Origin: Alviniconcha marisindica
Lineage: Eukaryota > Mollusca > Gastropoda > Provannidae
Assembly (NCBI GenBank): GCA_018857735.1
Contig: JABMCL010000340.1
Location: 214,501-278,500, forward strand
Direction: 5' to 3'
Length of the DNA stretch: 64,000 nucleotides
The notes under the pieces were generated by a model that worked only from the letters and a program-made list of their open reading frames with translations, was not told the DNA's origin and made no database searches. Positions within the stretch are counted from its first letter, which is position 1. The number at the start of each line of letters is the position of its first letter. Made by a program: the position numbers and the translations under genes. Of this stretch, positions 56,101 through 59,100 are shown piece after piece.

Positions 56101-59100
56101 TTAGGGACAAGCTGAGACCAATGCCGAAGCATGGTTCAATAAATCTTTACGTCCACGGAAGCCAGAAGGCTCATTAGGATGGACAGCCCAGGATGGGCAC
56201 CTCAACTCTCACGCAGCTCCGGAACTATGAACTACTGTCTCTGTGCATCGCTCAGCACTTTCAGTGTTTCCACCTCAGTGTGGAGCAGTGGTATGCTTCG
56301 CTCTGTTTTGTATCGAAAAAGTGTTTCACCATCTTGCATGCTTTTGACAGATCAGTATTAATAGTAGTGCAGGACATACCAGGGTGAAAAACGGGTCCCC
56401 ACACCACAAGTAAAATACAGAGACACACACAGACAGTCAGGCAGGCACTCACGCACACATGCACATGTGCACGCACGCACGCACGCATGCACGCACGCAC
56501 GCATGCATGCACGCACGCACGCACACACACACACATCTTCCTCCAGCTTCTTGTAGACTTCGAAGAGTGCCACACAGAAAGGAATGTTCATGGTGAGGGG
56601 GGAGGACGCTGGAGAGATGCTCCAGTAATTTTGAGCCTGTTAAAAACGGAGTCCTCGGAGGGTACAAAAGCGAACTCCGCAGGGAGGCTGTTTTGAGGTT
56701 TCTGTGGATGTAAAGCACCATGAAAGAAGAAGAAGAGGCTATTTTTCAGTTGGGCACCATTCTGCTGGGCAGGGTTTTCACATGCATTGTGTCAGATCAA
56801 ATGGGAGACGGTAATAGCTGGAGCAGGCCAGGCATCAATTTTTCCTTTGGTGGTTTTGGCGTTGGCTGATGTTGGGGTGGGGGGGGCGTTGGTGTTGGTC
56901 AACCTGTTGAAGTGTTTTGCGTTTTGACGTCACACAAACGCTAGCGGTGGTGTTGTGCTTTTGCAGGCAAGCACCGAGGAAAGGGCAAGCCCGGGGAAGA
57001 GAACTACGGCCAGACAGGACTCAACACGTTTCCAGAGCCTGGCCACTCCGCACGCCAGGAGAAAGTCTACCAGCCGGAGGCCTTTGCTGACCAGCACGTC
57101 TCTGAAGTCATCAGAGAGAATGAGGAGCTGAGGAACAAGGCGAGTCCTTTTGGTGTTTCAGCTGCTCTTGTCAGGGTTAGGAACCAGCAACAGTTTAGGG
57201 ATCCACTTGTGAGGTGATGTGAGGGATGTGAGAGTTGTGAGGGTTGTGAGCTGATGTGAGGGTTGTGAGGTGATGTGAGGGTTGTGAGGTGATGTGAGGT
57301 GATGTGAGGGTTGTGAGGTGATGTGAGGGTTGTGAGCTGATGTGAGGGTTGTGAGGTGATGTGAGGGTTGTGAGCTGATGTGAGGTTTGTGAGGTGATAC
57401 GAGGGTTGTGAGGTGATGTGAGGGTTGTGAGGTGATACGAGGGTTGTGAGGTGATACAAGGGTTGTGAGCTGATGTGAGGGTGTTGGTGATCCGTTCGTT
57501 ATTCAAGGCTGCTAATGGGTCTGACAGTTTCAGTCACCAACTTTAACTTGTTCAGGATTGCATGGTGTCCCACCACTCCTGTCGGGACTCAAACCCAAGA
57601 CCTCTTGATCACGAGACTGTCGCTCTACCCCTGAGCTATTCCTGCTCCTCATAAGGGGGTTTAAAGTGGGTTGGGTTGGGTCCCTTAGTGAATTACTTGG
57701 CGGGGAGAAATGTGCTGACCGAAATAAACATGTACTCAGGAGTACAAGGAGTAAGTGCTTCCTGCTGACCTGCTGTGCATCTTTGGTGTTTGCGCTCGCA
57801 GCTGGAAATGCTGCAGCTGGAGAGAGATCAGCAGCGGGTCGACCTCCGGCGCTCGCTGGCTGAGACCGAGGCCATCGCCCGACGGGCCAGGGAGGAGTAC
57901 GACAGCAAGGTATGTATTGTGTTGGTGCTGACCTAAAATTGTGGTAGTTTTCAGTTAAGTGTGGTAATTTATTGTTGAGGCACACAGTGCAGTGATGCTA
58001 AAAAGCAGAAAGCAGAAACAAACACACACACACAAAAAGTTTCCTTTGGCTAAAATAAGATAAAGAAAAGAAGAAATTTTCTTTGCAATATGAAAATGTG
58101 TCAGCTAGCACTAGCACTAATGGTTATTGAAAATGTACTCTTGCTACAAGATACCTCTCTCCCTACCCCCCCACCCCCCACCCCTCCCTCATCCTATCCT
58201 CCTGCCCCCCCTCCCCTTCCCTCCTCTTCCCCCCCCCCCCCCTCCCTACTCCTCCCTGACCTTTAGTTTCAAGAGACAGTACATAGGTGTGGCTTCACCT
58301 GCCTGTCAGGCAGCTGCACTGGTACTTCAGGGCTTGGTAGATGGTTTCATTGGCTGTGTGATGGGTCAGGTGGACTGATTGTGCAGAGAACCGTGTGACT
58401 GATGGGCTGGTTTCAGATTGAAGCCCTGAGGGTGTGCAGAGAACCGTGTGACTGATGGGCTGGTTTCAGACTGAAGCCATGAGGGTGTGCAGAGAACCGT
58501 GTGACTGATGGGCTGGTTTCAGACTGAAGCCATGAGGGTGTGCAGAGAACCGCGTGACTGATGGGCTGGTTTCAGACTGAAGCCATGAGGGTGTGCAGAG
58601 AACCGCGTGACTGATGGGCTGGTTTCAGATTGAAGCCATGAGGGTGTGCAGAGAACCGTGTGTGACTGATGGGCTGGTTTCAGATTGAAGCCATGAGGGT
58701 GTGCAGAGAACCGTGTGACTGATGGGCTGGTTTCAGATTGAAGCCATGAGGGTGTGCAGAGAACCGCGTGACTGATGGGCTGGTTTCAGATTGAAGCCAT
58801 GAGGGTGTGCAGAGAAGGGTGTGACTGATGGGCTGGTTTCAGATTGAAGCCATGAGGGTGTGCAGAGAACCGTGTGACTGATGGGCTGGTTTCAGACTGA
58901 AGCCATGAGGGTGTGCAGAGAACCGTGTGACTGATGGGCTGGTTTCAGACTGAAGCCATGAGGGTGTGCAGAGAACCGTGTGACTGATGGGCTGGTTTCA
59001 GATTGAAGCCATGAGGGTGTGCAGAGAACCGTGTGACTGATGGGCTGGTTTCAGATTGAAGCCATGAGGGTGGCACACGAGAAGGAGCTGACGCGGATCA

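Follow-up and report, generated by a model that had tools for sequence, protein, structure and literature searches.

A tandem array of thirteen splice acceptors before one exon of CEP162 in a caenogastropod snail: a probably tolerated "mirage"

Introduction

How is an exon recognized when its acceptor is the last in a row of near-identical copies? This question is raised by CEP162, which encodes a cilium-building protein and which, in the window studied here (the whole stretch of DNA analysed, 64,000 nucleotides), contains a tandem array at the boundary between an intron and its exon 28. Thirteen acceptors that are identical over 22 intronic bases before one exon represent a natural competition experiment: as local site strength is constant, a preference for one of them would have to originate in the body of the exon, in the donor that follows it or in the order in which the sites appear in the transcript.

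Results

The exons of CEP162 were located by tblastn of the Littorina protein, and their edges were set from AG/GT sites. In a protein search with the joined exons, the best named matches were the CEP162 proteins of Littorina saxatilis (79%), Batillaria attramentaria (77%), Babylonia areolata (76%) and Nucella lapillus (72%), which identifies the host as a caenogastropod snail. Homology thus supports the gene name proposed in a preliminary description of this DNA, although the exon in question, counted there as number 27, is the 28th of 30 in a model in which the matches behind two small exons (at about 22659 and 25717) are weak. The features identified are compiled in Table 1. No Pfam family was returned for either the CEP162 C-terminal query or the Littorina protein, although precomputed Pfam accessions exist for homolog matches. 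The exon immediately before the one that precedes exon 28 has a GC donor (AACAAG/gcgagt at 57139), and three CEP162 donors (45889, 59171 and 29592) read AG/gttggc with T at +3, a type that this snail may use more often than the textbook consensus suggests. In the exon at about 32475-32570, two neighbouring tblastn pieces lie in different frames as compared with Littorina and Batillaria; this frame break may be due to a mistake in the assembly or to a genuine lesion of the allele.

Table 1. Coordinates in the window of the features discussed (a slash marks the splice junction).
Feature	Position	Strand	Basis or detail
CEP162 gene, 30 exons, start to stop codon	14057..61549	+	tblastn with Littorina protein, AG/GT sites
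Preceding CEP162 exon, donor AAG/gtatgt	57802..57909	+	exon model
True CEP162 exon, 28th of 30, 117 nt, phase 0/0, donor GAG/gttggc	59055..59171	+	exon model
53-bp tandem array, 13 copies, intron end plus first exon bases	58380..59072	+	TRF, copy by copy
12 upstream acceptor copies	58417..59002	+	sequence, acceptor matrix
True 3' splice site module, copy 13: TGAC and CTGAT (putative branch-like motifs), short pyrimidine stretch, AG	59018..59054	+	sequence
Donor-side duplication, exon 18	45862..46306	+	true donor 45889; copies 46061-46131 and 46238-46306
Acceptor-side duplication, exon 22 (acceptor 52911)	52619..52926	+	78.9%, 57 bp, 16 exonic bases
Old acceptor-side duplication, exon 24 (acceptor 54533)	54225..54585	+	74.6%, 63 bp, 53 exonic bases
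Donor-side duplication, exon 24 (donor 54758)	54744..55056	+	94.4% and 80.0% identity
Donor-side 50-bp array, 7 copies, TIGAR-like exon 6653-6846	6310..6664	-	sequence comparison

The preliminary account of twelve near-identical 53-bp units ahead of the real exon was borne out by TRF, which reported a period of 53, 13.0 copies and 97% matches. Each copy comprises 37 intronic and 16-18 exonic bases, and the acceptor pattern GGTTTCAG/A[TC]TGAAG occurs 13 times, with exon starts at 58417, 58470, 58523, 58576, 58629, 58684, 58737, 58790, 58843, 58896, 58949, 59002 and 59055, spaced by 53 bp with a single exception of 55 bp. The units are thus arranged in tandem across the intron-exon boundary and retain splice signals (AG in 12 of 12 upstream copies), as in the minisatellites called mirages, and acceptor and exon start are repeated in tandem as in a duplication of the CBS 844ins68 type. 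The copies diverge pairwise by a mean of 2.7% (66 pairs, excluding copy 6, which carries a 2-bp insertion). The remaining variants are T/C at -23 and +2, a two-base change and a change at +10; those at -23 and +2 are common to non-adjacent inner copies, whereas the +10 change is unique to edge copy 1, and copy 13 at the other edge is like the inner copies. Hence, the 18 exonic bases earlier described as common to the copies are so overall, but differ at +2 in five copies and at +10 in copy 1. As none of 2,530 windows of Markov sequence contained a local duplicate of at least 22/30, against 30/30 here, the duplication is not due to chance. In the assembly of 817,622,342 bases, unit matches were confined to this array (six of six matches, with only the best candidates scored), and the 349 bp just upstream of the array as well as the last CEP162 exon each had a single match; searches with these three sequences found neither a paralog nor a second haplotype with which copy number could be compared.

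Can the 13 acceptors be told apart? Positions -22 to -1 are identical in all of them, and with a matrix derived from the other 28 acceptors of CEP162 they score 1.75-1.97. The true acceptor (1.75) is the fourth weakest of 29 in a leave-one-out ranking with a median of 5.65. The region 57950-59172 contains 108 AGs, of which seven that lie before the array and one within the exon outscore every copy, the best upstream ones reaching 8.13 at 58310 and 7.86 at 58370, so that the site used is not predicted by local strength. The nearest AG upstream of the true acceptor starts at -30, for which reason the unit should itself contain the branch point, and each copy would form a complete but weak acceptor module; TGAC and CTGAT in copy 13 are putative branch-like motifs. 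The G of the last acceptor's AG is predicted to be unpaired with a probability of 0.31, as compared to 0.09-0.46 for the other twelve. A hairpin with an 8-bp stem around the AG (-8.3 kcal/mol) was considered as selector and rejected: it is alike in 12 of the 13 copies, including the real one, is tied as fourth most stable of 29 acceptors, and is equalled or surpassed by 18 of 200 shuffles. The equivalence of the 13 sites, claimed previously, therefore holds at the local level in sequence, score and hairpin. Because the acceptors are locally indistinguishable, the selection of copy 13 should depend on the body of the exon, on the donor that follows or on position. The lack of variation in the -22 to -1 core has a probability of 0.06 (5 variable sites) or 0.11 (4 events) under neutrality, with copy 6 omitted from the region tally, and is weak evidence for selection on the decoy acceptor cores.

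Copy 13 differs from the others in what follows it, namely, exon sequence past base 18, and in how far it lies from the 59171 donor. Only its acceptor reads on into the CEP162 exon, and the Littorina and Batillaria proteins have no extra residues across the exon 28 junction, which identifies copy 13 as the true exon start. Measured to this donor, the exon would have 117 nt when begun at copy 13, 170 nt at copy 12, 223 nt at copy 11 and up to 755 nt at copy 1; exon definition would accordingly favour the last copies, and leakage would come mainly from the nearest. All 12 upstream copies lead to a premature stop. The TGA 13 codons in, previously attributed to every one of them, is present in 11, whereas the copy starting at 58629 has its stop at codon 20 because the next unit carries the 2-bp insertion. 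The usual criterion for decay is the 50-nt rule. Even for copy 12, arithmetic puts the stop some 130 nt upstream of the end of the exon, and another exon, of 150 nt, follows ahead of the last junction, so that decay would be expected. An upstream-copy product that escapes decay would lack the C-terminus; in excerpts of PMC10104899, C-terminally truncated human CEP162 is reported to retain microtubule association but not centriole localisation. Skipping of exon 28, with 117 nt and phase 0/0, would be in frame. Gene conversion of the exon by the array was also considered, as the +10 codon is CTG (Leu) in copy 1 and ATG (Met) in the exon, but was rejected since Littorina and Batillaria also have Met. 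Leu is the commonest residue at this place (104 of the 120 homologs listed), and Met is probably old in this group.

Tandem arrays cover 32% of the CEP162 gene and 31% of the window, as compared to 12.4% of 140,000 bases in 14 stretches of other contigs (about 20% of the readable sequence, 52,500 bases being N). The relation of these arrays to splice boundaries was analysed in 30-nt windows, which were considered positive when a local duplicate of at least 24/30 was present. This was the case for 30.8% of 5,799 intronic positions, but for only 4 of 58 splice boundaries, namely, acceptor 59055 and donors 45889, 49457 and 54758 (binomial P 1e-5, assuming independence). In a circular-shift test, in which acceptors and donors alike were examined with an acceptor-shaped window, 3 of the 58 boundaries scored positive, whereas the shifts gave a mean of 15.7 and were equally low in 0.24% of 5,000 cases; as shifts also place boundaries on exons, this is a rough control. 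Arrays are thus kept away from exon edges in CEP162, and the 13-copy array is the strongest exception, an escape. Arrays also thin out over the last 100 bp or so ahead of acceptors, where 2 to 4 of 29 are positive between -100 and -30, and there is hardly any thinning over the same span downstream of donors (7 to 11 of 29).

The array had been treated as a one-off, but it belongs to a known kind, and further boundary duplications exist in CEP162 and the adjacent gene. A gapped comparison that required at least 10 exonic bases detected those of exons 18, 22 and 24 (Table 1) along with that of exon 28, and did not return the 49457 donor; the exon 18 donor copies are 84.5% and 89.9% identical over 71 and 69 bp. 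The minus-strand neighbour is a histidine-phosphatase gene (PF00300, E 2.7e-26), the best solved match of which is 3dcy (E 1.8e-18), presumably human TIGAR. Its exon at 6653-6846 is flanked by an acceptor and the donor AGAACGA/gtgagt, which lies at the edge of the 50-bp array (Table 1); the seven donor copies in it show no more than 2 mismatches of 16, and GT is lost in two of them. Boundary-spanning arrays are therefore present in both genes looked at, one boundary having been examined in the second. A 33-bp array at 61533-62196 includes the CEP162 stop codon, and the last coding bases of exon 30 are copied behind the gene; GTCATAG occurs 15 times in 61501-62250, and the stop is thus repeated there.

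Discussion

The explanation that we favour, with a probability of about 0.78, is that the array is a tolerated mirage in which copy 13 is mostly used by way of exon definition and the upstream copies serve occasionally as decoys. A tandem duplication of a 53-bp stretch, containing the 3' splice site and the first exon bases, would have founded a minisatellite that grew to 13 copies, the likeness of which may have been maintained through turnover of the repeat; in the amphioxus sense, this would be a mirage. The 13th copy would mostly be chosen because it alone is followed by the exon body and by a donor at normal exon distance, and products of the upstream copies would carry premature stops at places where decay is expected. 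The array would be tolerated rather than selected for. This explanation is supported by the array structure and the stops, the equality of the acceptors, the homolog junction without extra residues, the failure of local strength to predict the site, the repeat-rich surroundings (31%) and the similar duplications at other boundaries, as well as by the regular splicing of amphioxus mirages and the mostly wild-type mRNA of the CBS duplication in the excerpts cited below. It is weakened by the fact that copy 13 has no stronger local site, by the core invariance, which may reflect some constraint, and by the frame break at about 32475-32570, as the allele may be imperfect or the assembly erroneous.

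The array could also act as a copy-number rheostat, in which the number of decoys or the array length would set the share of mis-spliced or exon-skipping CEP162 and hence protein output. We consider this unlikely. Boundary minisatellites do vary in length, as two haplotypes with 6 and 3 units are described for amphioxus BflGb6 in the part of PMC3087553 available, and in-frame skipping of exon 28 would suit such a mechanism, as would the skipping of the next exon in human ABCA7, which rose with the length of the intron 18 VNTR according to excerpts of PMC5954066. However, the same excerpts give a frequency of about 2%, independent of repeat length, for the cryptic site use that retains one unit, which speaks against regulation through decoys, and the snail array has a single place in the assembly, without a second allele to compare. 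If the rheostat were true, longer alleles would lead to exon 28 being skipped in frame more often or to increased decay, with effects on CEP162 dose and cilium traits; and if array length varies between animals, the influence of decoy number on splicing would be directly measurable. A broader view, that boundary-spanning minisatellites recurrently feed splicing variation in repeat-rich snail genomes and that the 13-acceptor array is one such rheostat, appears slightly less likely still.

It is improbable that the array is an assembly artefact and that the unit is present once or a few times at the real locus. Assemblies are prone to errors in repeat copy number, the BflGb6 mirage was misassembled in the amphioxus draft genome (PMC3087553, in part), and the frame break in another CEP162 exon is a hint of wrong bases or of a genuine lesion; against this, the array copies carry distinct variants, and long reads probably span 0.7 kb in a contig of 433,052 bases. 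Least probable by far is that each unit is used as an in-frame microexon of 15 nt (ATTGAAGCCATGAGG, IEAMR) by means of an internal donor-like AGG/GTGTGC. This motif is present 12 times in the array and its score of 5.92 falls within the range of the 28 GT donors of CEP162 (3.65-9.99), while the true exon reads AGG/GTGGCA at this place (-0.81). Nevertheless, the intervening introns would be of 38 nt, below what animal spliceosomes normally handle, and IEAMR was found in 4 of the 120 homologs listed, once in each, and more than once in none.

The tolerated mirage that we favour has counterparts in other animals. In the CBS 844ins68 allele, the acceptor at the junction of intron 7 and exon 8 is reportedly duplicated. 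This allele resembles the snail array in that an acceptor plus exon start is duplicated, and differs in being a human polymorphism with one extra 68-bp copy instead of 12 extra copies; excerpts of PMC1334203 report mostly wild-type mRNA. In structure, the CEP162 array is a mirage (a minisatellite that extends across an intron-exon boundary) with an unusually uniform set of acceptors, in a new lineage: a search of the open-access literature by title or abstract returned no such minisatellite in a mollusc, and mirages there were from amphioxus only. The concept is thereby extended to a mollusc with acceptor- and donor-side examples in two adjacent genes. In amphioxus, mirages are described in Adh3, the globins BflGb6 and BflGb9, troponin C and PGBD5 in the available parts of PMC3087553 and PMC3902484, and RT-PCR in the former showed regular splicing to be undisturbed. 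As far as these parts report, both systems have minisatellite-like duplications across boundaries, acceptor- and donor-side cases and splice signals in many units. They differ in unit size, namely, 53 bp in 13 copies with identical acceptor cores in the snail, 150-160 bp in 6 or 3 copies in BflGb6 and 10-72 bp in Adh3; furthermore, splicing and instability have been examined in amphioxus, whereas the snail analysis covered the sequence. Judging from the same excerpts as above, the ABCA7 VNTR also has a splice signal in each unit, the use of which shifts the frame, and lies beside an exon, but on the donor side, with a 25-bp unit, a length of hundreds to thousands of bases and a measured length effect, as opposed to the acceptor side in the snail.
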